From NCBI GenBank assembly GCA_902633185.1, contig CACPFN010000001.1, positions 62,001 through 126,000 on the forward strand: DNA of 64,000 nt, given 5' to 3'. Made by a program: the position numbers and the translations under genes. Source of the stretch: an uncultured Pelagibacteraceae bacterium. Its GTDB lineage: Bacteria > Pseudomonadota > Alphaproteobacteria > Pelagibacterales > Pelagibacteraceae. Positions 20,032 to 52,280 of the stretch are shown piece by piece (within the stretch, counting starts at the first letter, position 1; every line of letters begins with the position of its first letter). Under the pieces are notes generated by a model. That model had not been told where the DNA came from and searched no databases. It saw only the letters and a list, made by a program, of their open reading frames with translations.

Positions 20032-20037
20032 TTCAAG

Positions 20038-20084
20038 GATAGTCCTAAAAAACCGGGAGCTAAAGATGGCTAGATAGGACTATC
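20038..20084. repeat. Perfect 10-bp-arm inverted repeat between divergent genes (possible structured leader or operator)
   Basis: GATAGTCCTA (20038-20047) / TAGGACTATC (20075-20084), 27-nt loop with an internal AGCT/GGCT mini-stem; 6 nt from the lysE-like start codon. Confidence 0.7.
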
Positions 20085-20148
20085 TAAAGGTGATAATATC
20101 ATAGACTTAAGTATTTGCATTAAAATAATATTAGCAATTTGTTGAATT

Positions 20149-33353: not shown

Positions 33354-33785
33354 ATGAATGTAGCAATCAAATCTATAACAGAACAAAGGGATTTTGTTGT
33401 AAGTTCTTCGAGTTTGAAGCAGGTTAGATCATTCTCAAGAGAAGTATTTGAAAAAGTAAATATTGATCAAGATTTAAAAGACGAGTTAGTTTTAGCTATT
33501 GCAGAGGCTGCACAAAATATTGTTAAACATGCTTATCAAGGTGAAGATACTGAAGACAAAATGGAAATTAAAATTTCATTAGAAAAAGGACATCTTGAGA
33601 TTGGTTTTTTTGACAAAGGAAGACCCGTTGAAGAAAAAAATGTAAGACATAGAAAAATTGATGATATTAAACCAGGTGGATTAGGAACTTTTTTTATTCA
33701 ACAAATAATGGATGCAGTAGTTTTTAAAGAAGGTGAAAAACCTTGGATTAATCACTTAGTTCTTACAAAAAATTTAAATTCTTAA
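33354..33785 (+). CDS. HATPase_c anti-sigma-factor-type serine kinase (RsbW/SpoIIAB-like)
   Basis: N-box 'ELVLAIAEAAQNIVKHAYQ', 'IGFFDKGRPVEEKN', 'PGGLGTFFIQQIMD'; starts 3 nt after the STAS stop codon. Confidence 0.92.
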   Translation: MNVAIKSITEQRDFVVSSSSLKQVRSFSREVFEKVNIDQDLKDELVLAIAEAAQNIVKHAYQGEDTEDKMEIKISLEKGHLEIGFFDKGRPVEEKNVRHRKIDDIKPGGLGTFFIQQIMDAVVFKEGEKPWINHLVLTKNLNS

Positions 33786-35023
33786 CCACCGATAATCGCA
33801 CCAACATTAAAGATTGGTGAATACATGGCGATCATCAAGCCACCTATCATTGTACCCATAAATACAATCATGATCGGCTCAATTAAGCTAGACATATTGT
33901 CTACTGCAGTATCAAATTCTTCTTCATAGTAAGAAGATACTGAAGTAAACATTTCATCTAAATTTCCTGTTTGCTCACCAACAGAGATTAGCTGACTGAA
34001 GGTAGGTGGAAAAACCGGTTCTTTTAAAAATAATTTTGTAAGTGTGTCTCCTGAAAAAACTCCTTTTTTAACATTTTCTAATGCTTGAGTTACAACATCA
34101 TTATTACTTACTTGTTTAGCGATTTCTATACTTTCTAAAAGGTTTACCCCTGCTGCACTAAGATTACCCATTATTAATGCAATTCTAGCAATCAATGATT
34201 TTAAAATCATATCGCCAAAAACTGGCATTTTTAAAACTCGTTGGTGCCACTTGTATCTAATTGCAGGAATTTTAGTTGTGGTATATTTAAATACAACAAA
34301 ACCTATTATTGATACTATTCCAAGTGTTAGTCCACCAGCACCTCTCATAAAATTACTTGCATTCATTATGACAGCTGTTGGGGTAGGTAATGCAACACCC
34401 ATTCCCTCATACATTTCAGCAAATACTGGAACAACTTTAATTAACATGAAAACCATAACTGTTATTGCAACAGTAAACATAACTACTGGATAGGTTAATG
34501 CACTTTTAATTTTCTTTTTAACTTTTTCTCTTTTTTCTAATGAATCTACTAATTTTAAGAGGAAATCATCAAGTTTACCGCTGGCCTCTCCAGCTTTAAT
34601 CAAATTTATATAAATATTATCAAATATCTTTGGATATTTTTCAAAACATTTAGAAAGAGTTATACCACCTTCTAAACTTTTTCTAATATCTTCAATAATT
34701 TCTTTCATAGTAGGGTGTTCTATTTGGTCTCTAAGCATCGTTAAAACATTTAAAATTGGCAAACCTGCTTTTACCATTGTTGCAAATTGCTTAGAGAAAA
34801 GCATTACATCCGCTGGAGTGACTTTTTTTTTACCAAAAGAAAAGCCACTTTTTTTGCCCTTTTCTTTTTCGGCTTTTTTCTTTTTAACTTTGATTAAGTT
34901 TGTAATTATTATTTTTTGTTCTTTAAGTTTAAAAGAGGCTTCTTCTTGATTTATAGCCTCTATTTCACCTTCAATATATTTACCTGCAGATATTCCTTTA
35001 TAAGAAAAAGTTTCGGCTGACAT
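33782..35023 (-). CDS. pilC: Type IV pilus inner-membrane platform protein
   Basis: T2SF domains: 'FSKQFATMVKAGLPILNVLTML...' and 'FPPTFSQLISVGEQTGNLDEMF'. Confidence 0.95.
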   Translation of the reverse strand: MSAETFSYKGISAGKYIEGEIEAINQEEASFKLKEQKIIITNLIKVKKKKAEKEKGKKSGFSFGKKKVTPADVMLFSKQFATMVKAGLPILNVLTMLRDQIEHPTMKEIIEDIRKSLEGGITLSKCFEKYPKIFDNIYINLIKAGEASGKLDDFLLKLVDSLEKREKVKKKIKSALTYPVVMFTVAITVMVFMLIKVVPVFAEMYEGMGVALPTPTAVIMNASNFMRGAGGLTLGIVSIIGFVVFKYTTTKIPAIRYKWHQRVLKMPVFGDMILKSLIARIALIMGNLSAAGVNLLESIEIAKQVSNNDVVTQALENVKKGVFSGDTLTKLFLKEPVFPPTFSQLISVGEQTGNLDEMFTSVSSYYEEEFDTAVDNMSSLIEPIMIVFMGTMIGGLMIAMYSPIFNVGAIIGG

Positions 35024-35026
35024 TTG

Positions 35027-36775
35027 CTACTCCATAGAGAGAACTCTATCATACTCTCTAAAATTAAGATCACCTGTTAGAATTAATTCTCTTCCCATAT
35101 CTTGCATTGTCCTAAACCCTTCATTTGAAGCAATTTCTTTAAGCTCAGGGGTTGTTGCTTTTCTTAGGATTGCCTCTTTAATTGGTTTTGTAACATTTAA
35201 AATTTCATAAATACCCATTCTACCTTTATAGCCAGTATCTTTACATTTAGGACAGCCACTACCCTTTTGAACTTTTGCCCTTGAAGCCTGTTCAACTGTA
35301 AATCCCAAATCAGCTAAAGCCTTAGGTGTTATGTCTTCATCTGGCACTCTACACTCTGAGCAGGTTTTTCTTGCTAATCTTTGTGCCAAAACAAGTGAAA
35401 CGGCTGCACTGATCAAATAATCGGGTGTTCCCATGTTTTGTAACCTTGTAATGGTACTTGGTGCATCATTAGTGTGAAGTGTGCTAAATACCAAGTGACC
35501 TGTTAAGGCTGCTTTCAATCCAATATCAACTGTTTCTTTATCCCTCATCTCACCAACTAGAATTATTTCTGGGTCTTGTCTTAAAAAAGATCTCAGGGCA
35601 GTAGAAAAGTTAAAACCAATATCATCTTTAATTTGAACTTGTCCAACACCATCCAATTCATATTCGACAGGATCTTCTGCAGTTAAAATATTTAGGTGAG
35701 GTTTAGAAACTTCTTTTAGAATACTATAAAGTGTTGTTGTTTTACCTGATCCAGTAGGACCTGTTACAAGAACCAAACCTTGTGTTCCATGAATTGCTTT
35801 TCTTAAATTTTTTAGATCTGTTTCTTCAAAATTTAGTTGCTCTAAACTAATATCTCCAGCATCTTTATTAAGAACCCTCATTACTATTCTTTCATTAGTT
35901 GCTGTTGGTAAAATCGAAAGACGAAGATCAACTACTTTGCCATCAATTTTAAAAGGTATTGCTCCATCCTGAGGCAATCTTCTCTCAGCAATATCTAGCT
36001 TACCCATAATTTTAAATCTTGTAACTACAGCGCCATAATTTGAATGAAGAAATTTTTTGAAATGTTCTTGTTCTTGTAGAATTCCATCAAGTCTATATCT
36101 AACTCTTGAAGTAAATCTATATGGTTCAATATGAATATCAGATACTCCTGATTTAATTGCTTCTGCTACTACAGCTGTACTAAATTTTATAACCTCAGAT
36201 TCGTTTTCAATAGCTTCAATATCTTCCTCAGGTGGTTTTTCTAAAACTTCAGCTTGTTCATCAACATCGTAGTCAAATGTTTTTGTTTTTTCTGCATTTG
36301 TTTGTCTGATGTCAGATATAGTTCTTTCACCATCAGCTAAAAGTTTATCAACGAAACTGGAAATATCTGAAACTTTAGCTGCATGAAGCTCAATATCCAT
36401 TTTTGTTATAGTTCTCAAATTCCTCATCAAACTTAATTTGGAAATATCTGAGATTGCTATATGCAAAACTTTGCCTTCGATTTTGAAAGGCGCAATAAAA
36501 TTCATATTGATATAATTAGAAGGAAGCACCGCTTTTAGCTCGTCAGTTACCTCAACTTTTGATAAATCAATCACATCTAAAGATTGATCTTTAACGAGAA
36601 GATCTAAAATCTTTTCTTCATCAGTCAAGTTTAGTTCGAAGACAGCATCTAACTGAGATTTTTCACCATCCCCTGATATCTTTTTAATCTCAGCTAAATC
36701 TTTTCCAGAAATAATATCTTGGTCAATTAAGATATTAATCAAGTTTATTTCAGATTCTCTACTTATATTAATCAT
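35027..36775 (-). CDS. pilB: Type IV pilus extension ATPase
   Basis: 'VTGPTGSGKTTTLYSIL', 'TAEDPVEYELDGVGQVQIK', tetra-Cys 'CSEC...CPKC'. Confidence 0.95.
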   Translation of the reverse strand: MINISRESEINLINILIDQDIISGKDLAEIKKISGDGEKSQLDAVFELNLTDEEKILDLLVKDQSLDVIDLSKVEVTDELKAVLPSNYINMNFIAPFKIEGKVLHIAISDISKLSLMRNLRTITKMDIELHAAKVSDISSFVDKLLADGERTISDIRQTNAEKTKTFDYDVDEQAEVLEKPPEEDIEAIENESEVIKFSTAVVAEAIKSGVSDIHIEPYRFTSRVRYRLDGILQEQEHFKKFLHSNYGAVVTRFKIMGKLDIAERRLPQDGAIPFKIDGKVVDLRLSILPTATNERIVMRVLNKDAGDISLEQLNFEETDLKNLRKAIHGTQGLVLVTGPTGSGKTTTLYSILKEVSKPHLNILTAEDPVEYELDGVGQVQIKDDIGFNFSTALRSFLRQDPEIILVGEMRDKETVDIGLKAALTGHLVFSTLHTNDAPSTITRLQNMGTPDYLISAAVSLVLAQRLARKTCSECRVPDEDITPKALADLGFTVEQASRAKVQKGSGCPKCKDTGYKGRMGIYEILNVTKPIKEAILRKATTPELKEIASNEGFRTMQDMGRELILTGDLNFREYDRVLSME

Positions 36776-38325
36776 TATAAAATTCTTGGTGCAATAAATA
36801 CTAAAAGCTCATCTAGATTATCAGAGTTTGCTTTGCCTTTAAAGAGATTGCCTATCACAGGCATATTTCCTATTGCAGGAACTTGATTTTTGTTATTTGC
36901 AATCACATTTTTCTTAATACCACCAATTACAACTATATCTCCATCTGCAACTAGTAATTTAGTTACAATTTCCATTTTATTAATCGGAGGTTCGTCAGAT
37001 GAAGCTGTTCTATTTGGTGTATCGTTATTCACTTGAATAGTGAGTAGAACATTTCCATCACCAATGATACTCGGAGTTACTTCTAATTTTAAAGCCGCTT
37101 CTTTAAAAGAAGTTGATGTAGTCCCGTCAGATGTAGTTTGGTAAGGAATTTCCTCACCTTGAGTAACTGTTGCAACTTGATTATCTAAAGTGAATACCTT
37201 TGGATTTGAAATTGTTTTACCCATTCCCATGCTTTCCAATGCAGTAATCTCAGCTTTTAAAACTCCTGAACCTGTTCTTCTTAAAATACCTATTCCACTT
37301 GTTGCTCCAGTTACCGGGAAATTAGACAATGTATCTGAAACACTACCTAGTCCAGCACCATCTCCAGGAACAGTTCCAAGCTCACTTCCTGAACTTGTGC
37401 CCGCAACACCACCTGCAACATTTCCAGCTCTATTATAATATCCACCAAGTCTAGCGCCTAAAGCTCTTTCAAAATCTGAATTTGCTTCTACTATAAAAGC
37501 TTCAATTAAAACTTGTTTTGTTCTTATATCAATTTCTTTAATAACTTTATCTACAACATCTAAGTCTTTTTCTTTACCTCTTACTATAATTGATCTTGTT
37601 GTGACCTCTTCTGTTATTTGTATTGGAGTGTAAGAACTTTCTCCTGTAGTGGATGTAAACAATTCTTCAATTGTGGCTTTTGCTTGCTTTGGTGTTATAT
37701 AATATAGTCTAAATATCTCTGAATATATTGGTTCAACACTGTCCTCTAATTCAACTTTCTTTTTTACAGCTTGCGCCCTTTCAGATTTATAAGTTTCTTG
37801 AGCAGTTAAAGTTTCTGGTGAGTGTACTCTTATTAAATTACTTGCAACATCCACATCAGATGCATAATTTTTCATATCTAACAAAGCCTGAAAAGCTTTA
37901 TCCCATGGTACATCAATTAATTCTGCTGATATAGCCCCAGCTACTTCATCTCCAACTAAAACATTAATCTCTCCAATTTTACCCATTAATTTCATAGTTT
38001 CTTTATAATCTAAGTTCTTAAATTTAAGTGTTACTCTTTGTTTTAATAATGGGTAGTCGTCTGGAATAATTAAATAATTTCGTTGAGCTTCAGAAGATAT
38101 TTTTTTTCTTTTGCCTAATTTTTTTCCATCTCCTTCAATAGGTTTAGGTCCCATTTCAAGAGTTTTTGATATTTCTGATTGTCCTGATTTTACAACATCT
38201 TTATTTTTTATAAGGGGAACATTGTGTTTAAAAGGCTTGTCATATTTTTTCATATTTTGACATGCGTTAAGCACAAACAAAAATAAAACTAAACCAATAT
38301 ATGTAGATATTTTTTTAATAATCAT
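36775..38325 (-). CDS. pilQ: Type IV pilus secretin, lipoprotein-type, no recognisable AMIN domain
   Basis: Lipobox-like 'FVLNAC'; N0/N1 and secretin core 'VTQGEEIPYQT...LEVTPSIIGDGNVLLTIQVNND'. Confidence 0.9.
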   Translation of the reverse strand: MIIKKISTYIGLVLFLFVLNACQNMKKYDKPFKHNVPLIKNKDVVKSGQSEISKTLEMGPKPIEGDGKKLGKRKKISSEAQRNYLIIPDDYPLLKQRVTLKFKNLDYKETMKLMGKIGEINVLVGDEVAGAISAELIDVPWDKAFQALLDMKNYASDVDVASNLIRVHSPETLTAQETYKSERAQAVKKKVELEDSVEPIYSEIFRLYYITPKQAKATIEELFTSTTGESSYTPIQITEEVTTRSIIVRGKEKDLDVVDKVIKEIDIRTKQVLIEAFIVEANSDFERALGARLGGYYNRAGNVAGGVAGTSSGSELGTVPGDGAGLGSVSDTLSNFPVTGATSGIGILRRTGSGVLKAEITALESMGMGKTISNPKVFTLDNQVATVTQGEEIPYQTTSDGTTSTSFKEAALKLEVTPSIIGDGNVLLTIQVNNDTPNRTASSDEPPINKMEIVTKLLVADGDIVVIGGIKKNVIANNKNQVPAIGNMPVIGNLFKGKANSDNLDELLVFIAPRIL

Positions 38326-38764
38326 CTGCCTCTCTTAATTGATTATTAAAATCAATAATCATATATTTACCATCATCTTTTTTAAAGATAGCTTCTGTTA
38401 ATCTTAAATCAACTAATTGAATTGGCCCTAAATATTGACCAAGTGTAAGAGTTAAAACTTCTCCTCCAGAATTAACTAATGAAATATAACTATGATCTTT
38501 ACCTGAAATCAAACCTACTAATTTAAAATTATATAAGCTCAATTCATTTTCTTGCTCTTCTTCTGGTATATTTCCTGACATCGAGCTAGTTCCTTCATTG
38601 CCAGCAAATGGATCATTTAAAGGAACTTCGTCTTCTTCTTGTAATTCTTTAGCGATTTCTTTTGCAGCGTCTAATACTTCTTGTTTTTGATCATGATTAT
38701 CTGCAAAAGAAGTTTTTGATATTAAAAGAAATATTAATATGAATAATATTTTAGAAAAATTCAT
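38315..38764 (-). CDS. PilP-like pilus assembly protein
   Basis: Position between pilO and pilQ; 'LVGLISGKDHSYISLVNSGGEVLTLTLGQYLGPIQLVDL' PilP-like core. Confidence 0.7.
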   Translation of the reverse strand: MNFSKILFILIFLLISKTSFADNHDQKQEVLDAAKEIAKELQEEDEVPLNDPFAGNEGTSSMSGNIPEEEQENELSLYNFKLVGLISGKDHSYISLVNSGGEVLTLTLGQYLGPIQLVDLRLTEAIFKKDDGKYMIIDFNNQLREADDY

Positions 38765-39389
38765 TTGGTAACCCTACAATTGTTAATTCTCCAGTTGCAA
38801 CTATCGCTCCAGTTGAATCGTTTTGTACTACACTTATAGTCTCTTTGTCAAAATTTAACATTTTATTCTGTCTAGACACTGCTCTTTTAAACTTAATGTA
38901 ACCTAAGAAATTTCCCTTAATTTCATAATCTACTGGAATTTTGTAGTACGAGACCATTTCTTTTGTCAGATTATTTTCTGCTTGATCTGTGACCCCGCCT
39001 TTTAAAACTGGCTTTGGTTTTTTCTTTTCAATTTTAGAAATCACAAGACCATTTACTGCAGCGTATTTACTAAGGCTCTGATATAGATCTTCAACTTCAG
39101 CTTTTGAATGAAATAAAGTTGATGTTTTTTCAAAGTCAGGTTTCATTTTTTTAATTCTTGCTTTGAAAGTAATTATCTCATTTTCAAATTGTGCAATTTC
39201 ATTTTGCTTTAAAATTTTATCATTATATTTTGCTTTTCTTTCTTTAACCATCGGATTTAAAATGATGTAATAAATAATTAAAAATAATACGATTGCTCCA
39301 AAACCAGAGCCAAATTTAATTAAAGTTTTCTTTTCAACAGAAGCTAGCTTCTGTTTTAAATCATCCATTGTAATATTTTTTAAATCCAT
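38751..39389 (-). CDS. pilO: Type IV pilus assembly protein PilO
   Basis: One TM plus coiled-coil; 'IPVDYEIKGNFLGYIKFKRAVSRQNKMLNFDKETI'. Start set at MDLKN. Confidence 0.85.
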   Translation of the reverse strand: MDLKNITMDDLKQKLASVEKKTLIKFGSGFGAIVLFLIIYYIILNPMVKERKAKYNDKILKQNEIAQFENEIITFKARIKKMKPDFEKTSTLFHSKAEVEDLYQSLSKYAAVNGLVISKIEKKKPKPVLKGGVTDQAENNLTKEMVSYYKIPVDYEIKGNFLGYIKFKRAVSRQNKMLNFDKETISVVQNDSTGAIVATGELTIVGLPNEFF

Positions 39390-41107
39390 TAAACGCTCTC
39401 CAATACACAAGCTATTTTAAAGCCCTTCATAGTTTGCGAATTTTGCTGTTCATTAGGTAATGTCATGCTCGCTAAAGATGCTTGCGATATAAGCTTCTTA
39501 TTATTTAAATTACTAATGAGTTTTAAAATGTCTTGATCGCTAAATGCTGATCCTTCGATTATAACTAGGTCTGCCCCATTATATTCTATAGACTTAAACT
39601 TAACTCTTTTAGGTACTGCTGATGCAATTTGAGCCAAAACTCTGAAACTTACAGTTTTATTTGACTTAATTGATTTGCTAAGTTGCAAAGATTTTAAAAT
39701 AATTCCAATTTCTTTAGCATACTTATTTTTCTCTAAAGTTTTTAATTCATGAGTTTGGACAATTTCATCGTAATCGACAATTTTTTTATTTAAATCAGTT
39801 ATTTGCCAAAAAGCGAAACCAAAAAGTACAATGTATATAACTGCAACAATTCCAACAACTCCTTTGAAAGCAAAATTTGAAAAAGCTTTTGCCTTTTTTT
39901 GCGCAATCATATTTTCTCTATTAGGTAATAAGTTTATATTCTTAACTGCGGTTACAAATTTATAGTATCCAAATACGTCAAGTTTTCTAAATGCCAATCC
40001 CATCACAGTTGAAAAATATGAACGATTGTCAATTTTTACATCGTTTTCTAATTGAGCAGGAATTTTAATTCCTTCAAATGGATCAAATAAATTATATCCT
40101 GTATTGACCATATTTTTTCTAAAGCTGCCTAAATAATCTTCTACATTTTGCAAATTAGATACTACTTTTAAGTTTCTAATCCTTTTTTCATATTTCTGTT
40201 CAAAATCCTGCACAGCTTGTTTAACTTGAGTCATGTATCTTCTTACTAAAGCGTCCATTTCCTCTTGGTTATTACTTTCTTGGAGTGTTTTTCTATCCTG
40301 TGATCTTATAAAAATATCCGTTATGATTGGATTGTTCTCATATAGTATCATTACATAATTCTCATCGAAACCAAATTCCAAAACTGCTGTTAAATTAGAA
40401 TCTTCAATGGATCCTGCAATTTGATTAATTTGATCTACTGCAGATTTTAGTGCAAAACATTTAACATCAATAATTACTGCATTAAGCCCACCTTTTTTAA
40501 TAATATCTGTGTAGCTATTTATGTCTGATAGCTTTGAAGCTACAAATAAAATATCCATAGTATTTCCAGTTTTGTCTCTATTAATTACTTGATGAAATAT
40601 TGAATAATCATTTAAATTATCTGTTAACTGAACTAAATTTTCCCATAGTGAGTCTGTATCTATTGCTTTTTTTAATTCTTCATCAGTCATTAAAGGTGCA
40701 GTAACTACTCTTATAATTGCACTAGTGACTGGAATTGCTATTGCAGCATTTGTTGTTGTAATTTTCGATTTTTGTAAAGCTAATTTTAATTCATCAGCGA
40801 CTTTATCTGGATTTTCTAAAACTGTTCCATTTTCAGGTATGCCTTCAAATTTATGTACATAAAATCTATCTAATACCCATTGATTAGCCTTGTTACTTGA
40901 AACTTGTGATAATCTTATTTCATTAGATGTTAATTCAACACCTAAAATCTCTTCTCCTTTTATAGCTTGCTTGCCTAGCCTCTTCTTTAAAAATTTATCA
41001 AAAAATCCCTCTTTCTTCTTTTTGCCATCAGCTGCCTGAGGAACTGGAGGTGTGTTGCCCTGTTCCTTACTTTTCTTTTTGAATAGGTTTGCAAAAGGAT
41101 TTTTCAT
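39389..41107 (-). CDS. Fused PilM-PilN type IV pilus assembly protein
   Basis: N-terminal PilM actin-like segment; C-terminal 'NINLLPNRENMIAQKKAK' + TM + PilN ferredoxin-like domain in one 572-aa ORF. Confidence 0.85.
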   Translation of the reverse strand: MKNPFANLFKKKSKEQGNTPPVPQAADGKKKKEGFFDKFLKKRLGKQAIKGEEILGVELTSNEIRLSQVSSNKANQWVLDRFYVHKFEGIPENGTVLENPDKVADELKLALQKSKITTTNAAIAIPVTSAIIRVVTAPLMTDEELKKAIDTDSLWENLVQLTDNLNDYSIFHQVINRDKTGNTMDILFVASKLSDINSYTDIIKKGGLNAVIIDVKCFALKSAVDQINQIAGSIEDSNLTAVLEFGFDENYVMILYENNPIITDIFIRSQDRKTLQESNNQEEMDALVRRYMTQVKQAVQDFEQKYEKRIRNLKVVSNLQNVEDYLGSFRKNMVNTGYNLFDPFEGIKIPAQLENDVKIDNRSYFSTVMGLAFRKLDVFGYYKFVTAVKNINLLPNRENMIAQKKAKAFSNFAFKGVVGIVAVIYIVLFGFAFWQITDLNKKIVDYDEIVQTHELKTLEKNKYAKEIGIILKSLQLSKSIKSNKTVSFRVLAQIASAVPKRVKFKSIEYNGADLVIIEGSAFSDQDILKLISNLNNKKLISQASLASMTLPNEQQNSQTMKGFKIACVLESV

Positions 41108-41232: not shown

Positions 41233-42249
41233 ATGTTTGAAAAGTTAGAAGAGCTTGCAAAAAATAATAAAAAAATATCTGATTTCCACATTAGATCGGG
41301 CTCCCCATTAGCCTATAGGCAAACAGGTGAAATTATAAAAGTCGAAGAAGTAATGGTAACGGCCCAGGATTTAAAAGATTTATTGTCTATGAATTGTAAT
41401 GAGTACGAACTTAATAAGTTCGATAAAACACATGAACTTGATACTTCGGTTACATTAAGTGGACTAAGATTTAGGGCAAATTTTTATAAAACTATAAATG
41501 GGCCTGCTTGCGTTTGTAGAAGAGTAGAAAGTAAAATTCCTGATATGGATCAGTTTAACTTACCACAATCTTTATATGATATTGTAGATTTTCATAAAGG
41601 CTTGGTTTTGGTCACAGGTCCAACTGGATCTGGAAAATCCACTACACTTGCAGCAATTGTAAATGAAATTAATAAAACACGAACAGCAAATATTATAACT
41701 GTTGAAGACCCAGTTGAATTTATTCATAAAGATAATAAAAGTATTGTTTCACATCGAGAAGTTGGAAAACAAACTGAAACTTTTGCTGCTGCATTGAAAG
41801 CTGCTTTAAGAGAAGATCCTGATGTAATTTTAGTTGGAGAAATGCGAGACCTTGAAACTATAAGTTTAGCATTAACTGCTGCTGAAACAGGTCACTTAGT
41901 TTTTGGAACATTACACACTAGTGGAGCTCCAAGCACTATAAACAGAATAATTGATGTATTTCCGCCTGAGCAACAAGAACAAATTAGAGCACAAATTTCT
42001 ACATCATTAAAAATGGTTGTTACTCAAAGATTACTTAAAACAAGAGATGGGATGGGTAGAGTTGGCGCATTTGAAATAATGAAATGCACAGCACCAATTC
42101 AAAACTTAATAAGAGAAGCAAAAATTCACCAAATTCCAAGTATTATGCAAACAGCTGTTAGAGAAGGAATGATTACTATGGAGAAATCTCTTGAAGAATT
42201 AGCAAAATCTGGGAAGATAGATCCTGGTGCAGCAAGATCAGAACATTAA
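41233..42249 (+). CDS. pilT: Type IV pilus retraction ATPase
   Basis: 'VTGPTGSGKSTTLAAIVNEIN', 'ALREDPDVILVGEMRDLETI', 'GHLVFGTLHTSGAPSTINRIIDVFP'. Start set at MFEKLEEL, 20 codons inside the listed ORF. Confidence 0.95.
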   Translation: MFEKLEELAKNNKKISDFHIRSGSPLAYRQTGEIIKVEEVMVTAQDLKDLLSMNCNEYELNKFDKTHELDTSVTLSGLRFRANFYKTINGPACVCRRVESKIPDMDQFNLPQSLYDIVDFHKGLVLVTGPTGSGKSTTLAAIVNEINKTRTANIITVEDPVEFIHKDNKSIVSHREVGKQTETFAAALKAALREDPDVILVGEMRDLETISLALTAAETGHLVFGTLHTSGAPSTINRIIDVFPPEQQEQIRAQISTSLKMVVTQRLLKTRDGMGRVGAFEIMKCTAPIQNLIREAKIHQIPSIMQTAVREGMITMEKSLEELAKSGKIDPGAARSEH

Positions 42250-42877
42250 AGGTTTTACTATTTTAGAATTGCTAGTTGTTATAACAATTGTAGCAATTGT
42301 ATCCGCTGTTGGTTATCCAAATTTTATGAAGTGGAGAGAAGATAGAGAGATACGTGCTGCAATGGAGTCAGCAGCAACAATGTTATCTTCAATTAATAAT
42401 TTATCACAAAGAGGCAATTTCCCTTTTGTTCAATTAAAAATTACACCTAATGGAACAACTAATACAACAATAACAAGTAAAGGTATGAATGTTAAAACTT
42501 TATCTACAAGATTAAATAGTGGGAGTGTAATTGATTGCAGTTTAACAAATAGTGGTTATTGGGATAATCATTTGGTAGATAAAACCACAAAAGATGTATC
42601 AACACATATTAATGCTGAGGGCTCAGTTTGTTTTTCGCAGGATGGCACTCATTACAAAACTTTAGGTAAATTAAATTCAAATGTGAATGTTACTGTAGAA
42701 GGTAGGATTACTAATCAATATTTAATCATTTGTTCTACATCTAATGCATCAGGCAGTGGCAAATGTCCCACCAATCAGGCAGATGGTTTGAAACAACCCG
42801 CATATTTGGTAGAGTGGACAAGATTTGGTAACATAAGCAAATTTAAATGGAGTGGTAGTGGTTGGAATAGACAATAA
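42227..42877 (+). CDS. Minor pseudopilin (GspH/FimT-like)
   Basis: GTG start; leader 'MQQDQNIKG|FTILELLVVITIVAIVSAVGYPNFMKW'. Confidence 0.87.
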   Translation: MQQDQNIKGFTILELLVVITIVAIVSAVGYPNFMKWREDREIRAAMESAATMLSSINNLSQRGNFPFVQLKITPNGTTNTTITSKGMNVKTLSTRLNSGSVIDCSLTNSGYWDNHLVDKTTKDVSTHINAEGSVCFSQDGTHYKTLGKLNSNVNVTVEGRITNQYLIICSTSNASGSGKCPTNQADGLKQPAYLVEWTRFGNISKFKWSGSGWNRQ

Positions 42878-43448
42878 AATTAAAAAAGGCGAAAAGGGAA
42901 TGACATTGCTTGAGGCACTTGTCTCAACTGCAATAATAGGAATTGGTTTTGTTGCTGTTTTTCAAATGGTAAACTATTCAGTCCAATCTATAGATGTGTC
43001 TGGTGAAAGAACAAAAGCTAATTATTTAGTTTCAATGGTAGCAGAAGATCTTATTTCAGAAAAAGAGTCTAATTCTCCGACAAAAGACGTCAAATTCATG
43101 GATTACTTAATAAGTAATAAGAATAGCTCAAATTCATCATGGAGAATGGGATCATGTTCATCGGGATCGAGTACCACAGGAAATTTTACTAATGCTACTC
43201 AAAATAAATTTAAAAAGTGGGATGATCGTTTCTCGACGCGGAGAATTAAATGTAAAGGAGCACAAGATATAAAATATCTAAAAGTTTTTGATATTTGCAA
43301 CAATAATGCCAGTGGGAATAATTGCACTTACAATAATACAAGAAATTATAACGGCACAGGAATATATGAAAAATGGATTGTTGGAAAAATGGAGGTCAAT
43401 CTTAATAGTGGTAAAAAGAAAAAGTTTTTATATTTCCAGATTGATTAA
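42852..43448 (+). CDS. Minor pilin PilV-like
   Basis: Leader '...KKGEKG|MTLLEALVSTAIIGIGFVAVFQM'. Confidence 0.82.
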   Translation: MVVVGIDNKIKKGEKGMTLLEALVSTAIIGIGFVAVFQMVNYSVQSIDVSGERTKANYLVSMVAEDLISEKESNSPTKDVKFMDYLISNKNSSNSSWRMGSCSSGSSTTGNFTNATQNKFKKWDDRFSTRRIKCKGAQDIKYLKVFDICNNNASGNNCTYNNTRNYNGTGIYEKWIVGKMEVNLNSGKKKKFLYFQID

Positions 43449-44287
43449 TGAAAAAAAAATTATCTAATATTGCTGGTGTTACATTAATTGAAATTCTTAT
43501 TGGGATATTGATTTCAGTAATAATGATGGGAGCAATGTTCACATCTTATACTGTAGTTAATAACACATACTCTCAAGTTACTGATCGGGCAAAAATTTCA
43601 ACTGCTGGAAGAGACGTTGTTGGAATGATTATGAGAGATGTTAGAAACGCTGGTTTTAAATATTTTGGAGATAATATTAAAACAACTAATGCTCATGCTC
43701 CAATTCTCATTACCAAAAGCTCAAATTTCAATACTAGCTGTGATAAAATAGATATTGTCTATGGTGGTGTGAATTATAATGCCACTAGAAATCCTAAATA
43801 TCAGTATGAAAGATTTAAAGTAACTTATGAATGTAAAGCTTCAACAATTCCAGATAAAACTTCACCTAAACTAAGTGGCGGCGGTTATCCACCAATAAAA
43901 GCTTTTGCAATTTATAAAACTAAAGTTAAATGGAATAACACCTCGAATAGTTGGGATAATCCATCAACTGATGGAAATGATGCAACTTATCCATCGCAGT
44001 TGATAGTAGATTATATAGTTGATTTAATATTTAATCCAATTGATGAAACTGGGGTTTTAATAAGCCCTCCTCCAACTCCCACAAATTCCAACAAAGATAA
44101 ATTATATAAAATTAAAACTATTGATATCGCAATGACAGTAAGATCGACAAAAGATTTTTTTAGGACATCTAAAGTTAGAAAAGTATTAGCGATGATTGAT
44201 AAAAAAAGAGACAAATCAAAAACTGATAAATATTTAAGAGATACTATTGTAGTAACGGCTCATGCTAGAAATTTAGGATTAGAATAA
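43448..44287 (+). CDS. Minor pilin PilW-like
   Basis: Leader 'MKKKLSNIAG|VTLIEILIGILISVIMMGAMFTSYTVV' and 'GRDVVGMIMRDVRNAGF'. Confidence 0.85.
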   Translation: MKKKLSNIAGVTLIEILIGILISVIMMGAMFTSYTVVNNTYSQVTDRAKISTAGRDVVGMIMRDVRNAGFKYFGDNIKTTNAHAPILITKSSNFNTSCDKIDIVYGGVNYNATRNPKYQYERFKVTYECKASTIPDKTSPKLSGGGYPPIKAFAIYKTKVKWNNTSNSWDNPSTDGNDATYPSQLIVDYIVDLIFNPIDETGVLISPPPTPTNSNKDKLYKIKTIDIAMTVRSTKDFFRTSKVRKVLAMIDKKRDKSKTDKYLRDTIVVTAHARNLGLE

Positions 44288-44961
44288 TGAAAAAAAACGA
44301 ACAAGGATTTGCATTAGTGTTATCATTAGTTTTGATGTTAGCAATGTCATTAATGGGTGGAGCTTTAATTGTTATTTCAGCAGGAGATCACCGTAGCAAT
44401 AATAAGAGTGATGAATACCAGCAAACTTTCTATGTCGCAGAAACAGCTTTGATTGAGGGTGAAAAATATGTTCTTAATAAATTTTTAGGACCTTGGAATA
44501 CATCTAACCATAAAAGAGATACTTCAAAAAGAGCTTTGCCAGCAAATCAAACTTCTGTTTGGAACGGCGCAATGACAAAAAAAAATTATACAACAAGTGA
44601 CAGCTTCTATTTTAATACTAGTACAAATTGTTATCAAAGTTTCTCAGAAATAGACAAAAGTACTCTTAAAGTTGTTGCATCCGAAAGTTGGAATTTTGGA
44701 AAAGTCTTAAGAGATAGTTTTAATACTAATGCATCAAACCAAGAAAAAACTGAAGCTGAGAGATTGCAGTCTTATTATTATGAGTTTTTTATATCGAGAA
44801 TTGGAGCTGCACCTTTTAGAGGATACGGATCAAGCGTTAAAAAAGGCGCTACAGACAAAGGAAACGATGGAATGGCCTATAGAGTTTATGGTTGTGGTAT
44901 AAAAAAAGATGATGACAGAATGATTGTGGCACTAGAGAGCACTATTGTTCTTCCAAAATAA
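44287..44961 (+). CDS. Minor pilin PilX-like
   Basis: Leader 'MKKNEQG|FALVLSLVLMLAMSLMG...YVAETALIEGE'. Confidence 0.83.
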   Translation: MKKNEQGFALVLSLVLMLAMSLMGGALIVISAGDHRSNNKSDEYQQTFYVAETALIEGEKYVLNKFLGPWNTSNHKRDTSKRALPANQTSVWNGAMTKKNYTTSDSFYFNTSTNCYQSFSEIDKSTLKVVASESWNFGKVLRDSFNTNASNQEKTEAERLQSYYYEFFISRIGAAPFRGYGSSVKKGATDKGNDGMAYRVYGCGIKKDDDRMIVALESTIVLPK

Positions 44962-45024: not shown

Positions 45025-45579
45025 ATGAAAAGATTAGTCCAATTTTTTATAATATTCTTTCTATTTTCAGTACCTGCTAATGCTGCGTGTGATTTTATGA
45101 TTAAAATTGGTGAGAAAGGCACAAAAGTATTTGAAAAGTTTGCAATTCCTCTGCCTGGTTTTAAAGGAATGTGGTACATGCCTGTTCAATCTCCAGAGGT
45201 TTGTCCAAATGATAATTTAAACGAAAATATTGCAGTAGAATATGTATTTTTAGGAGATAAACATGAACAAGCTAAATTAGCAGCTATAAGAATAATTGTT
45301 CTTAATGATGGAAATAATACTGAAAACAATAAATTAACATTGATGAATTATGCTAAAAAAGTTTATGGAGATTTTGATACTGGTCAAAATCCTGAAATAT
45401 TCAACAGCTATAATATTTGGGAAAACGGACAAAGTATTGTCATCTATAAAAGAATGTTAGATGCAAATGATTTAATTGAAGAAGAAATTATGATTACAAA
45501 TTTGGAATATGATAAAAAACTAGGTTTATTCTTTAACGAAATTGAAGCAGAAGCAGAAGGGTTTGATAAGAAGGAATAA
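45025..45579 (+). CDS. Secreted protein of unknown function in the minor pilin/pilY1 operon
   Basis: Signal peptide '...FSVPANA|ACDF'; stop codon adjoins the pilY1 start. Confidence 0.75.
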   Translation: MKRLVQFFIIFFLFSVPANAACDFMIKIGEKGTKVFEKFAIPLPGFKGMWYMPVQSPEVCPNDNLNENIAVEYVFLGDKHEQAKLAAIRIIVLNDGNNTENNKLTLMNYAKKVYGDFDTGQNPEIFNSYNIWENGQSIVIYKRMLDANDLIEEEIMITNLEYDKKLGLFFNEIEAEAEGFDKKE

Positions 45580-48500
45580 TGAATAAGATAAAAATTTTAC
45601 TATTTAAAATTTTATTTTCTTTAATACTTTTAAGTAACTCAAGTTACGCAAAAAATATACCACCGGGTTCAGGGATTGGGGATGTTCCAGCAAATATATT
45701 AATCTTACTCGATAAATCTGGAAGTATGAGTGTCCGTATGACCAGTGGATCCGGATTTATGTATCCTTACGCTTCAGCAGCTGATAGCAGTGGAGATCTT
45801 TATATTGGACAATACTGGCGTTATGGGATTAAAAAATTCAATTACTCTACTGCAACTGTAGATACAACTTTTGCATCTAATGGAACATATGTGGGCTCTG
45901 GTAGTTGTAGAAGTTATTATCCTTTAAATATGAAAATTCATAATGGATATTTGTATGTAGCCTCTTATTATGATCACAGAGTTTTCAGAGTAAATATATC
46001 TACTGGAGCATGTGACTGGAATCACTATATCAGATATCCAAGAAATATAGCCATTGATACTGGTAACAGCATTCTTTATGCAAATGGGATATATGGAAAT
46101 GCGGTCGTTCGAAATTTATCTACAAATACAAATATAAATTGTTCTTGGTCTGGTAATTTAAATGGTCAAACCAGATATGGTTCAACAGCAGTAGATGCAT
46201 CTGGAAATAACTTTTACAGCATTAGTTACTCTAGAATGTACAGATTTACAATAAATCAGTCTACAAGATGCCCAAATACAAATTATTCAGCACAATGGTA
46301 TTGGGGTGGAAGTTATTCTTTTGGAATGGATAATCATCCCTCTGATGATAACATTTTGTATTTAAACAATTATTACTCTCACAGAGTTGAGAAAATAACT
46401 TTAAATTCTTCTAAAAATAAAGTTCAATCTAGAAAGACAGCAGGAAGATGCTGTACTGGTAAGTCATCATCAACAAATATTAGAATGTATTACCCATGGG
46501 GTGTATCAGTAGATAAAACAAATAATAGAGTGATAAGTACTACATATTATAAAATGTCAGTACATGCGTTTGATCTCGATCTAGGTTTTTTAAAAGAATT
46601 TGGTGGATCTAGTGGAACAAGAATGGATGGTGCAAAAGAGGCTATAAAAGCAATTGTTACTGACTCATCTTTAACTGCAGGAGTTAACTTTGGTTATGCT
46701 TATTGGTCATCAGGTGGAGCTGGTTTTAGATCTTGGAGTGGAAATATTACAACAGGAAGAGCTAATCCCTGTAGTTCTCGAGCATGCTTAAAAGTAAGAG
46801 TTCATAAACAAGGTGCCTCAAGGATAAACCAAATAATTGGAAGTTTAAACCCTGGTGGCGGAACAAATGCAGATGACTGGGCTAGAATTGCTGAAGAGTA
46901 TTATCTGAGCAGTAGTTATTCTCCAATTGATAAAAATTTATCCTGTCAAAATAGCTATATATTGGTTATTGGTGATGGTGATTGGTACAATCATAGCAGA
47001 GCTCAAAGTAGAGTTGTCAAACTTTTAAACAAACACAAAATTAAAACTTTTACCGTTGCATTTGGTGGAGGGTTATCAAGCAATGGTATTAGAAATTTCA
47101 GAAGAATGGCCCAAGCGGGTGGAACTAATGATGTTATAATTGCAAACACAACAGCATCGCTTAAATCACAATTAAAAGCAGCGATATCACAGGTTATTGC
47201 ATCTAAACTATCTTTTACTGCTCCTGCAATTACAGCTACTATAGAAAAAGGTGGATCATTATACCAAGCACAGTTTGATTATATCCAAAATAAAGAATGG
47301 CAAGGTAAATTAACAAGAACAAAATTAAATCCAGATGGAAGTTTAGATCTTAATGATAAAGGAAATTGGGATGCTTCAGACAAACTTGAAAAAAGAACAA
47401 GTGCTAGAAAAATTTGGAGCCAAGTGCCTGGGGTAGATTATAGAACAAATTATAATAACTTTGTTGATACTAATTGGAGTTCAATAAACACGCTATTTGA
47501 GACAACAGGAAATGAAGTTGCTGGATATCATAATAAAACTGATAGTCCATCAAATACACAAAGATGTAAAAATGTTTCTTCGGTCAAAGATGCTGTCAGT
47601 GGTGTTAACGAGGATGATATTAAAGGACTAATTAATTTTATTAGAGGTAAAGACTATTTTGATTACGATGGTGATTGTAATTTAACTGAGAAAAGACCTA
47701 AGGCATTGGGAGATATATATCATTCTGAGTTGGTGGTTATTGGAAATCCAGAAGCTGAAACTGCATTTGTTGGTTCCAATCAAGAATCTTATTGGAGATC
47801 TATTAAAGGATATGATGCATGGGCAGCTTCTGTAAAAAGAGATGAAATCATTTATGTTGGTGCCAATGATGGAATGCTTCATGCATTCAATGCATCAAAT
47901 GGAGAAGAAGAATGGGCATTCGTTCCTCCATTGTTAGCTGCATCTTTCCCAAGCATGGTTAATGTTAATTTAAATAGATCTGTTGGTGGTTCAAATGCAA
48001 TTTATGGTGTAGATGGATCGCTGGTTGCACACGATATGTATTTCAAAAGTGCATTTGACAGCTCTAAACAGTGGCATACTATTTTAATGGTGCCGTATGG
48101 AAGAGGTGGTGGAGGTTTTTCTGTTTTAGATGTTACTAATCCTAAGAAACCTTTACATCTATACTCAGTTTTAAACGATAAAACTAGACGTGAAGTTCAT
48201 ATAATGGATCATAATGGAACGATAAATACATATAATTACATCCCAACATCATGGCCATTAAGCCAAATGGCAGAGTCAATTGCAGTCGGTGCAAGTCAAT
48301 CAACTGATTTTACTTGTAAGACAGATCAAAGCACTAAATGTCAAACACACAATGTTTGGACAATACCTAATGTAACTTTATCAAAATCAGATTTAAGAAT
48401 TACAATAGATGATAAAAATTATACAAGCTTTAGTGTTACTACTAATCTTCAAGGCACAGAGATCAGATTAAATAGAAATTTAACGTATTATGGTGGCGAT

Positions 48501-49670
48501 CCAGGGGATGCATCAAAATCAAGCACAAATATGGGTGTATATTTAAGACCAGGTTCTGTTAATACTGGAGTAACGACACAACCAGAATATGATTATAGTC
48601 AACTTGGTGAAACATGGTCAGCACCTAGAATTTTAAGACTACCTAACAGTGGTGCAGGAGATACAAATATTGAGGATGATATTTATGTAGCTGTAATGGG
48701 TGGAGGATTTGGAACTCAATACGAAGGAGTTGGCTCTAATTTAACTATAGTAAATCTTGAAGACACAAGTTTCCCAGGAAGAATTCATAAATCTATCCCA
48801 ATTGATGATTTAACAACTAATGATATTGTTAATTCTACTCCTGGTACACCAGTCGTTATTACACCTGATACAGCAAGAGGAGTGAATTATAGAGGAGCCT
48901 TAGTTTACATAAATGATTTAGAAGGAAAAATTACGAAGTTTAATTTAACTAATATGTCTGATGACGGTGCTGGAAGCGCTATTTCGTTATATGATAGCAC
49001 AACATTATTTACTGCAGGCTCTAATCAAACAAATGGTAGATATATGTATCATTCAATGGATGCAACAATTGGTCAAACAACAAACTCGTTGTGGTTATAT
49101 ACTGGTACTGGAGACTATGAAAGAATTGGATCCACTAATAAAGGAACAGATAATTTAATGCTAGGAATTAGTGATCCTCATTACCCATCTTACAGAGATG
49201 TAGCTGTTGCAACTAAAGCATCAGATTTAACAAATTGTAAAAATACAACTAAAGATACTACGGGAGCTAAATGTCCTCAAACCCCTAAAGATGTTGGATG
49301 GTATATAACCTTAGATGATTTCCAAAAAGTTACAGCGGAGCCAACGGTATCTAGTGGTTTAGTATATTTTCCAATATATAAACCTAGCTCATCAGTTAAT
49401 AAATGTAGCTTAGGTGATGCATTTATTTGTGGAGTAGATGATGAATGTGGAACAAATGTATCAAATAAACTTGGATCATTTAGGAATAAAAAAGATACTT
49501 GCATGTATGTAGGTCAGGGTGTTTTATCTAGAATAGTAGTTTATGCGAACAAATTATTTGCAAATATTGCAGGTCAATCAACAAATGCACAGAAGAAAGA
49601 TTTAGTTGTGCTTGATGCAGCAGCTGGAGGCACTTCTAGCTACAGAAGTTCTTGGAGACAGAACTATTAA
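45579..49670 (+). CDS. pilY1: PilY1-like pilus tip adhesin with split VWA domain and inserted NHL-like propeller
   Basis: 'ILLDKSGSMS' MIDAS; 'GANDGMLHAFNASNGEEEWAFVPP' and 'LGDIYHSELVVIG' PilY1 C-terminal signatures; repeated propeller blades at about 45740-46610. Confidence 0.92.
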   Translation: MNKIKILLFKILFSLILLSNSSYAKNIPPGSGIGDVPANILILLDKSGSMSVRMTSGSGFMYPYASAADSSGDLYIGQYWRYGIKKFNYSTATVDTTFASNGTYVGSGSCRSYYPLNMKIHNGYLYVASYYDHRVFRVNISTGACDWNHYIRYPRNIAIDTGNSILYANGIYGNAVVRNLSTNTNINCSWSGNLNGQTRYGSTAVDASGNNFYSISYSRMYRFTINQSTRCPNTNYSAQWYWGGSYSFGMDNHPSDDNILYLNNYYSHRVEKITLNSSKNKVQSRKTAGRCCTGKSSSTNIRMYYPWGVSVDKTNNRVISTTYYKMSVHAFDLDLGFLKEFGGSSGTRMDGAKEAIKAIVTDSSLTAGVNFGYAYWSSGGAGFRSWSGNITTGRANPCSSRACLKVRVHKQGASRINQIIGSLNPGGGTNADDWARIAEEYYLSSSYSPIDKNLSCQNSYILVIGDGDWYNHSRAQSRVVKLLNKHKIKTFTVAFGGGLSSNGIRNFRRMAQAGGTNDVIIANTTASLKSQLKAAISQVIASKLSFTAPAITATIEKGGSLYQAQFDYIQNKEWQGKLTRTKLNPDGSLDLNDKGNWDASDKLEKRTSARKIWSQVPGVDYRTNYNNFVDTNWSSINTLFETTGNEVAGYHNKTDSPSNTQRCKNVSSVKDAVSGVNEDDIKGLINFIRGKDYFDYDGDCNLTEKRPKALGDIYHSELVVIGNPEAETAFVGSNQESYWRSIKGYDAWAASVKRDEIIYVGANDGMLHAFNASNGEEEWAFVPPLLAASFPSMVNVNLNRSVGGSNAIYGVDGSLVAHDMYFKSAFDSSKQWHTILMVPYGRGGGGFSVLDVTNPKKPLHLYSVLNDKTRREVHIMDHNGTINTYNYIPTSWPLSQMAESIAVGASQSTDFTCKTDQSTKCQTHNVWTIPNVTLSKSDLRITIDDKNYTSFSVTTNLQGTEIRLNRNLTYYGGDPGDASKSSTNMGVYLRPGSVNTGVTTQPEYDYSQLGETWSAPRILRLPNSGAGDTNIEDDIYVAVMGGGFGTQYEGVGSNLTIVNLEDTSFPGRIHKSIPIDDLTTNDIVNSTPGTPVVITPDTARGVNYRGALVYINDLEGKITKFNLTNMSDDGAGSAISLYDSTTLFTAGSNQTNGRYMYHSMDATIGQTTNSLWLYTGTGDYERIGSTNKGTDNLMLGISDPHYPSYRDVAVATKASDLTNCKNTTKDTTGAKCPQTPKDVGWYITLDDFQKVTAEPTVSSGLVYFPIYKPSSSVNKCSLGDAFICGVDDECGTNVSNKLGSFRNKKDTCMYVGQGVLSRIVVYANKLFANIAGQSTNAQKKDLVVLDAAAGGTSSYRSSWRQNY

Positions 49671-49682
49671 TCATTAAAAATA

Positions 49683-52280
49683 ATGAAAAAGATTTTACTA
49701 AGTATAGTCTTCTTTTTTTTATTTAGTTCAGTTGGTTATGCTGGCCCATGTTTAACAACCATTGCTAGTGCATCGACAAATCAATTAGCTTGCGCGGATG
49801 ATGATATTTTAAAAGTTACTTCTGCTGGGTCAATTACTTACAGTGATAATAAGGCAGTTGATCTAGAAGATATCAGTGGAGTTCAAATTACTAATGATGG
49901 AACAATTCAAACAGAGAGCGGAACTAATAAACAAATCGCCATAAATGCTGAGTCATCTTTGAATACTACAATTACAAATAACGGAACAATCAACTCAGAT
50001 AATAAGTATGGTGTAATATTAAGTTATGCAGAAAATGTTGTAATTACTAATAATGCAGGGGCAACAATAAGTGCTGACGGTAATACTGCAATTTATGGAA
50101 AAAACGTTGGTAATTGTCATTTTAATGGTACTAATTGCCATTCAGATTTATCTGGTCAGTCAAATGGTGTTGGTCTTACACTACATAATCATGGAACCAT
50201 TACCTCTCAACATGAAACCGTTTGGTTAGGTTCAGGAAGTTCAGGTGCTCACAGGAGCAAAGGTATTAAAATCTATAACTATGATGGTGGAATTATTAAA
50301 ACAACAGATGAAGGAGATAGTCCGATTAAAGGTTTTCATTTAGTTGATTTTGAATTTATTAATTATCAGGGAGGTACAATTGAAGGTGACGACAGACATG
50401 CAGTAAATACTGAACAATCTGAAGATATCAATTTTACTAATAATGGTACAATAACTGCAACAGATAAAAGTGCATTTTATTGTAAAACATGCTCGGATGT
50501 TACTTTTAATAATACCGGAACAATGACATCTGGAAATAACGCTGTAGTAATTTCAAACGGGGATAATATAAGTATAACAAATTCTGGAACAATAACTGCC
50601 ACTGCTGATAATTCAGGTTTAAATATAAGTGCATCCGACGGTACCGTCGTTACTAATACAGGGACTATTTCTGGGGTTGATCATGGAATGCAATCTTCAA
50701 ATGTAGATAATTCTACAATAACAAATCATGGAACTATTTCTGCAAGCTCCAATTCAGGATATGGACTAGTGTATGAAAATGATGGAACCAACAGAGTAAA
50801 TAATACTTTAAACAATTATGGTACAATTAGCGCAACATCAGGTTCTCTTGCAGATGGAATTGGTATTGGAAAAGGTGCAAGTCCAATGTTTAATATTACG
50901 ATAAATAATTATGGTACAATTTCAGGATCTGATGATTCTATAAAAATGCTTAATTCTTCAAACACGGGTATAAATATAGTTACCAAAGGTGACGGTACAT
51001 ATGTTGGTGAGATTAACCTAAATGATTCATCGACAACAATGACATTAGATTGCAGTATTTCAAAAGATCAAAAAATAGAAATCCATAACAAAACAAATAT
51101 GGTTATCACAAATAATCTTTGTGGAAACGATACCTATGAAATATTAGATAGCAATAGCGATCCAGATTCAGATAATTCAGAAACAAATGGTTTCTTATAT
51201 GTTTATGGTGAAGATTTAGATATTGATAGCCATAATAAAAAATATAGATCTGAAATATTTTTATCTAATTTAAATGATATTTTTAATTCGGTTTCAGAAG
51301 AAAAAAAATCTAGTGGATATTATTCTGTAAAAAAAAGAGACAATATTTATGAAAATGAAACAACAGGGATAACTGGGGACTTTAAAATTGAAAATGATAA
51401 TTTTACACCGTTTTTAAGTTATTCTAGCCAGCAAGCAAAATTTAATAATGGAGAGGCTTTAGATAGTGAAAATTTAGCTATTGGTTTAAAAAAAGAAATT
51501 GATTACGAGAAATTTAAATTTTCTGTTGTTTCAATTTTTGGATTAACTCAAAATAAATATTTAGATCTTGAAACTGAAACACAACAAACAATTTTAAAAG
51601 AAAATCTAGGTCAGTTTGCTGCTGTAAATTATAAAGCATCTAAAGAAATAGAATTTGATGATAGTCAAAGTTTAAATATTGAAGTAGATGGTAAATATGG
51701 TTTAAGAAGACTTCCAACTTACTTAACATCTTTTACAGATGGAGATCTTTCAGTTGATGATGCTGTTGATCAAGTATTATCAGGTGGATTTAATGTTGAG
51801 TATTCAAAATCTTTTGAAAATGGCTTCGTTCTTAAGCCATATACAGGCCTATCTTTAAATCAAACTTTGAGTGAAAAAATTGACATTGTTGCAGACGGTG
51901 AAAGAAAAGATATGGCCCATTATATGGATGATGATTTAGCAGTAAAAGCTGGTTTAAATATTAGCAAAAATACTGATAACTTCGGCCTAAACTTTAATCT
52001 AGAATTTAATGAACAGAATGGACTTAAAGACAGCCAAGTAAGTATTTCATTAACGAAAGTAATTCAAAATAATATTAGCAAAAAAATAGAAGGACTACCA
52101 ATTGATCCAGAACTAGAGAAATTATTTGATCAATTACAGTTAGCTAAAGAAAATGAAAGATTAGCTGAGATAACTGGTAGAGCAGTTAAAGAAAATAGAA
52201 TTATGAAAGAAATGATTATTCAATTGATTAAAGAAAATAATAAACTTAAGACAGAAAGAAATCTTCTTTTAAAAAACTAA
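49683..52280 (+). CDS. Repetitive beta-helix outer-membrane adhesin/autotransporter-like protein with coiled-coil tail
   Basis: Signal peptide; many 'ITNxGTIxA' repeats; barrel-like region from about aa 560; final charged coiled-coil 'LEKLFDQLQLAKENERLAE...IKENNKLKTERNLLLKN'. Confidence 0.8.
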   Translation: MKKILLSIVFFFLFSSVGYAGPCLTTIASASTNQLACADDDILKVTSAGSITYSDNKAVDLEDISGVQITNDGTIQTESGTNKQIAINAESSLNTTITNNGTINSDNKYGVILSYAENVVITNNAGATISADGNTAIYGKNVGNCHFNGTNCHSDLSGQSNGVGLTLHNHGTITSQHETVWLGSGSSGAHRSKGIKIYNYDGGIIKTTDEGDSPIKGFHLVDFEFINYQGGTIEGDDRHAVNTEQSEDINFTNNGTITATDKSAFYCKTCSDVTFNNTGTMTSGNNAVVISNGDNISITNSGTITATADNSGLNISASDGTVVTNTGTISGVDHGMQSSNVDNSTITNHGTISASSNSGYGLVYENDGTNRVNNTLNNYGTISATSGSLADGIGIGKGASPMFNITINNYGTISGSDDSIKMLNSSNTGINIVTKGDGTYVGEINLNDSSTTMTLDCSISKDQKIEIHNKTNMVITNNLCGNDTYEILDSNSDPDSDNSETNGFLYVYGEDLDIDSHNKKYRSEIFLSNLNDIFNSVSEEKKSSGYYSVKKRDNIYENETTGITGDFKIENDNFTPFLSYSSQQAKFNNGEALDSENLAIGLKKEIDYEKFKFSVVSIFGLTQNKYLDLETETQQTILKENLGQFAAVNYKASKEIEFDDSQSLNIEVDGKYGLRRLPTYLTSFTDGDLSVDDAVDQVLSGGFNVEYSKSFENGFVLKPYTGLSLNQTLSEKIDIVADGERKDMAHYMDDDLAVKAGLNISKNTDNFGLNFNLEFNEQNGLKDSQVSISLTKVIQNNISKKIEGLPIDPELEKLFDQLQLAKENERLAEITGRAVKENRIMKEMIIQLIKENNKLKTERNLLLKN
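49860..50940 (+). repeat. Degenerate in-frame coding repeats (consensus x-I-T-N-x-G-T-I-x-A/S)
   Basis: 'TITNNGTINS', 'TLHNHGTITS', 'NFTNNGTITA', 'TFNNTGTMTS', 'SITNSGTITA', 'VVTNTGTISG', 'TITNHGTISA', 'TLNNYGTISA', 'TINNYGTISG'. Confidence 0.85.

Follow-up and report, generated by a model that had tools for sequence, protein, structure and literature searches.

Type IV pilus tip proteins of the PilY1/PilC group (Pseudomonas aeruginosa PilY1, Myxococcus xanthus PilY1.3, Legionella pneumophila PilY1) have a signal peptide, an N-terminal VWA domain carrying a metal ion-dependent adhesion site (MIDAS), a C-terminal PF05567 propeller and a gene located after those of the minor pilins. The same layout was found for a 1363-amino-acid PilY1 (45579..49670, forward strand) encoded on a 64,000-nucleotide stretch of DNA, the window, from an uncultured Pelagibacteraceae bacterium of the Pelagibacterales, or SAR11 (assembly GCA_902633185.1, contig CACPFN010000001.1, positions 62,001 to 126,000). 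It is near certain that in this protein an NHL propeller is spliced into the VWA domain. The first-pass annotation of the window had proposed a six-blade NHL-like propeller nested in the VWA domain beside the MIDAS, with the second (PilY1) propeller C-terminal to it, and this arrangement was supported by profile comparisons, a structure model and an insert-free relative (L136).

The protein resembles Acinetobacter ComC in having a lineage-specific insertion in the VWA (vWFa) domain of a PilY1-type tip protein, but the ComC inserts are finger-like protrusions that span ~90 residues, contain a Tyr-rich motif and do not form a closed propeller (PMC10374093). Streptococcus sanguinis PilB and Streptococcus pneumoniae RrgA also have additional structure around the MIDAS of their pilus vWA domains, but these unrelated proteins have short arms and no propeller (PMC8179133). 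The integrin alphaI domain likewise joins a VWA domain and a propeller by domain insertion, in the reverse sense: in integrins, which are unrelated, the VWA domain lies within the propeller, and in SAR11 PilY1 the propeller lies within the VWA domain (PMC12422189). The best profile and Foldseek matches were the six-blade NHL-repeat propellers of Thin, TRIM71/Lin41, TRIM2, Brat, PknD and the designed Pizza6, but the propeller of those proteins is terminal or free-standing. Between the MIDAS loop and helix alpha1, where SAR11 PilY1 has the NHL propeller, those PilY1 proteins of other Pseudomonadota that were read have either an insert of another, non-NHL kind or no insert. Module insertion at the PilY1 VWA domain is known, and the NHL insert of SAR11 represents a lineage-specific form of it.

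The segment inserted in the VWA domain of PilY1

The ATG of pilY1 at 45579 shares bases with the upstream gene's stop codon (TAATG), and AGAAGGA lies close 5' of it. The closest named records are from Pelagibacteraceae genomes (99, 97 and 84% identity), and full-length relatives in this family have 50-99% identity. Pfam T4P_PilY1 (PF05567) matched residues 710-854 (E 4.8e-11; 42.6 bits, cut-off 28.1), covering only profile positions 1-150 of 411; the remainder of the C-terminal PilY1 region (47706..49667) is assigned by homology to the full-length relatives. A putative signal peptide, residues 1-24 (MNKIKILLFKILFSLILLSNSSYA followed by K; 45579..45650), was recognized by eye. It is followed by the first piece of the VWA domain (residues 26-53; 45654..45737), consisting of an N-terminal segment, strand beta1 and the MIDAS loop, then by the insert (residues 54-346; 45738..46616) and by the rest of the VWA domain, helix alpha1 onward (residues 347-545; 46617..47213). 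The MIDAS strand ILILLDKSGSM is separated by ~295 amino acids from the next helix TRMDGAKEAIKAIV (residue 347 on, starting at 46617, with R348-M-D-G-A-K), close to the ~290 given in the first-pass annotation. The full residue set of the metal site was present, namely D45-x-S47-x-S49 (45711..45725), T429 in a GGGT loop (46863..46865) and D466 in VIGDGD (46974..46976). DxSxS was conserved in all 45 of the homologues listed, and T429 and D466 are conserved residues as well; the VWA metal site is retained as a predicted MIDAS (DxSxS + T + D).

The nesting was established with L136 (2509-5142, G085:C36), a Pelagibacteraceae PilY1 without the insert that reads DVSGSM-RGSRLKTMQNAV. Its frame is uninterrupted, its start is signal-peptide-like and its MIDAS is intact. 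Taken alone, window residues 347-560 gave no match to Pfam VWA, whereas the domain of L136 matched PF00092 with 57.4 bits over profile positions 1-164 of 174 and VWA_2 with 59.4 bits. By BLAST, window residues 3-50 align to L136 residues 10-55 (48% identity, E 1e-5) and window residues 334-887 align to L136 residues 44-540 (E 4e-57). Because L136 is a natural empty site with a full Pfam VWA domain to which both window pieces align, it proves at the sequence level that the predicted propeller is nested in the VWA domain. The full-length Pfam match of the empty site indicates that the VWA domain needs its first strand and is not complete after residue 340 without it, contrary to one refuting condition named in the first-pass annotation.

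The identity of the insert as an NHL propeller is weakly indicated by the single sequence and strongly by profiles. The window insert alone scored 17.0 bits against Pfam NHL (PF01436), below the cut-off of 20. Aligned with 14 relatives, however, it gave a profile that matched NHL domains in the PDB (Thin, E 2.1e-21; TRIM71, 1.7e-18; Brat, 2e-11; also PknD and designed Pizza propellers). Inserts from other genera of Pelagibacterales pass Pfam NHL: L126 reached 81.2 bits with four repeats above the cut-off, all nine match at E up to 1, and their profile matched the PDB with a best E of 8.8e-40. The two sets are homologous end to end (hhalign Prob 99.6 over 263 columns), and a group of 22 sequences with larger inserts aligned likewise (Prob 98.1-99.8), compared to Prob 0.1-0.7 for column-shuffled profile controls. 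A single-sequence phmmer search against the PDB gave mostly fibrinogen matches, with the fibrinogen beta chain at E 0.006; this 39-residue local match was rejected as noise, the profile having returned propellers only.

A blade hidden Markov model (HMM) trained solely on relatives from other genera scored 23.3 bits on the window insert, compared to a maximum of 7.6 and a mean of 0.8 among 500 shuffles, none of which gave more than one match above 5 bits. Register matches lie near residues 62, 114, 153, 204, 255 and 305, with a spacing of 39-52, and the six repeats quoted in the first-pass annotation are all present. The blade HMM places the cores of blade 1 at residues 62-91 (45762..45851), blade 2 at residues 114-135 (45918..45983) and blade 5 at residues 255-274 (46341..46400). 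Blades 3, 4 and 6 are weak matches to this model: the core of blade 3 lies at residues 153-176 (46035..46106), and that of blade 4, a very weak match with support from the profile alignment, at insert residues 151-166 (46188..46235). Blade 6 (46491..46616) begins at residue 305 in the blade HMM and coincides with the Pfam NHL stretch and with the strongest stretch of the PDB profile matches (profile positions 243-284).

An AlphaFold2 model of residues 50-353, built with four close sequences, had a predicted local distance difference test score (pLDDT) of 82.3 and a predicted template modelling score (pTM) of 0.85, with strands almost throughout. The top PDB matches of this model in Foldseek were NHL domains (Thin, Lin41/TRIM71, TRIM2) and Pizza6, with template modelling scores up to 0.78 by target length. 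Residues ~54-346 are therefore predicted to form a six-bladed NHL-type propeller fold, and the possibility that the segment is no propeller found no support from either program.

Distribution of the insert and the insertion slot

The insert was found at the same place in every readable Pelagibacterales PilY1 other than L136, with 45 alignment rows (including the window protein and near copies) in which MIDAS and alpha1 are ~300-390 amino acids apart. Ten further carriers (L126-L135) came from other genera and from another family of Pelagibacterales, and there were additional ones besides; the count leaves out L054/L166 and L125, two truncated PilY1 genes from another alphaproteobacterial family. 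In a closed Pelagibacter genome there are three PilY1 paralogues, two of which lie next to each other (G043:C1 899212-903609 and 925609-933307). In a tree of the C-terminal part, L136 forms a pair (SH-aLRT 98) with L133, a carrier of the insert from the same genus, and the pair falls within the insert-bearing Pelagibacterales. This grouping suggests that L136 lost the insert secondarily, in a quick tree that excludes the insert and has no bootstrap; the branch of L136 is long, and its genome is 78% complete with 5% contamination.

Outside Pelagibacterales, NHL and VWA were not found in one frame in samples of 367 genomes of the class and 299 of the phylum, where the matches read were separate NHL or separate VWA proteins and some matches were left unread. 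No relative was found in viral contigs. Among the ~20 PilY1 proteins of other Pseudomonadota that were readable, at least 12 have 150-300 extra residues at the same point, none of them NHL; the alpha1 motif NFAxW lies 155-303 residues past the MIDAS in 12 proteins, while L102, L105 and L109 are plain. That the SAR11 insert is this usual PilY1 insert in disguise was rejected: hhalign gave Prob 0.1-0.4 between the two, and none of 18 slot segments from the other Pseudomonadota matched Pfam NHL. Since other Pseudomonadota mostly carry different inserts at this point, the slot is a general feature of PilY1 and the propeller its Pelagibacterales filling; the slot is variable across PilY1 and only its content is lineage-specific. 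The first-pass annotation had taken beta1 and alpha1 to be normally adjacent, which holds for generic VWA domains and fails for PilY1, and had regarded the insertion point as unusual, a view contradicted by this survey and by the published insertions in PilY1/ComC vWA domains (PMC10374093). Our literature search found no paper joining PilY1 with an NHL repeat, a six-bladed propeller or Pelagibacterales; the combination may sit unremarked among the 68 PilC/PilY1 architectures in InterPro that a passage of PMC8179133 mentions.

The pilus cluster around pilY1

On the basis of Pfam matches and gene order, the cluster of type IVa pilus genes to which pilY1 belongs is complete. Genes for PilC, PilB, PilQ, a 149-amino-acid protein at the PilP position, PilO and a fused PilM-PilN are predicted on the reverse strand (33782..41107). 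The fusion is a single open reading frame of 572 amino acids (39389-41107) with PilM_2 at residues 56-261 and PilN at residues 489-568. A PilT-type retraction ATPase (PF00437; 41173..42249) and minor pilins of the FimU/GspH-like, PilV-like, PilW-like and PilX types (42227..44961; PilX_N, N_methyl and NCBIfam PilV matches, order conserved in relatives) follow on the forward strand. Between PilX and PilY1 lies a 184-amino-acid exported protein of no known family (45025..45579, forward strand), a candidate PilY1 partner or chaperone; the order PilW-PilX-184 amino acids-PilY1 is conserved in the Pelagibacter relatives with enough flank.

An 865-amino-acid exported protein (49683-52280, forward strand) is encoded 12 bases 3' of pilY1. 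It has N..GTI repeats of beta-helix-like appearance, a C-terminal coiled coil and what may be a beta-barrel part, gave no family match, and may be related to the SAR11 autotransporter adhesin reported beside type IV pilus genes (PMC12636525). Among relatives, its gene follows PilY1 in L050, L051, L002, L006 and L009 and was not found in L007, L008, L036 and L052; identity in L051 was 76%, where the adjoining pilins had 99%. Elsewhere in the window, an Rfam rhtB small RNA matched at 20025-20102 on the reverse strand (74.9 bits).

Candidate roles of the propeller

The N- and C-termini of a propeller are adjacent, so the insert could hang from the beta1-alpha1 loop, directly behind the DxSxS metal loop, and leave the VWA fold intact. 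It would then exit the VWA domain at the metal-binding end and be positioned to meet a target. In models of M. xanthus cited in a passage of PMC13190605, PilY1 occupies the pilus tip and its N-terminal domain is the outermost part; in SAR11 the propeller would lie next to the metal site, at the distal extreme of the tip complex. The propeller, alone or with the metal site, may form the target-contacting surface that sets pilus specificity, while the C-terminal PilY1 propeller would dock on the minor pilins and extension and retraction by PilB/PilT would pull the bound object or cell; retraction is implied by the PilT gene in the cluster. Inserts in PilY1-type VWA domains can carry function, since Acinetobacter requires the vWA insertion of ComC for twitching, for DNA uptake and for adherence to the host, and deletion of the finger alters all three (PMC10374093). 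In six of six pairs dN/dS was higher in the insert (0.16-0.44) than in the host VWA domain (0.05-0.17), about 2-5 fold, with the insert still under purifying selection. A fast-evolving insert with a kept fold would be fitting for a ligand-facing recognition module. We consider it probable, with some reserve, that the propeller is a recognition head that decides what the pilus tip grips.

Several points weigh against this. Faster evolution of the insert can also reflect relaxed constraint. Modelling residues 26-640 together in AlphaFold2 gave a poor result (pLDDT 52.7, the VWA domain mostly below 50), with an alignment just four similar sequences deep that made the VWA part unusable; the insert-alone model was used instead, and the geometry of propeller and MIDAS is consequently one that we infer. 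SAR11 has not been seen to attach, but the presence of pilus-like filaments, and of an autotransporter adhesin encoded beside pilus genes, is reported for these bacteria (PMC12636525).

The propeller might instead be mainly regulatory or mechanical, capping the MIDAS or controlling it allosterically as a shield, force gate or spacer. Its attachment straight after the DxSxS loop, the arms flanking the MIDAS in S. sanguinis PilB and RrgA (PMC8179133) and the conserved MIDAS residues beside a fast-changing propeller would all fit such a role, but a pure cap should be conserved at its contact with the VWA domain and has no need to outpace it 1.5-5 fold in dN/dS, and L136 retains an intact MIDAS and reading frame without the insert; we regard this explanation as unlikely. 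The elevated dN/dS, together with the variability of the 865-amino-acid protein encoded downstream, is also what a variable outer shield or phage receptor face under phage or grazer pressure would show. Values well below 1 and a six-blade fold retained across genera argue against it, and we give it only a slight chance.

The slot is filled with unrelated material in other PilY1 proteins and the propeller was apparently lost in L136, as might be expected of a passive insertion tolerated by a permissive loop and without a function of its own. Its retention in every other readable Pelagibacterales PilY1 and the purifying selection on it make this quite improbable. The explanation to which we assign the lowest probability, and a very low one, is a DNA-binding tip for natural transformation. 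Type IV pili are capable of DNA uptake, and the nearest fold matches include RNA-binding NHL domains; the NHL propellers of TRIM71 and Brat bind nucleic acid, but general NHL homology does not imply such binding. ComEC (PF03772) was not detected in the window's own genome or in 18 Pelagibacterales genomes, 14 of them with this PilY1, whereas the control genomes were positive. Transformation of the ComEC type is therefore unlikely, and adhesion is favoured.

The preferred reading, a recognition head at the pilus tip, can be extended to a composite receptor in which the VWA metal site and the NHL propeller nested beside it would jointly decide what SAR11 attaches to, with the beta1-alpha1 loop of PilY1 VWA domains serving more generally as a place where recognition modules are swapped; this extension is tentative, and we lean against it at present. 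The L133/L136 pair, one member with the propeller and one without it, is a ready-made control with which the insert's role could be tested directly. No heterotrophic bacteria are more abundant in the surface ocean than SAR11, which are regarded as living free and unattached. An elaborate, fast-evolving tip head on a retractable pilus would imply a specific target for them, and the recurrence of an insertion slot next to the metal site of PilY1 points to a way in which pili may switch specificity at their tips.

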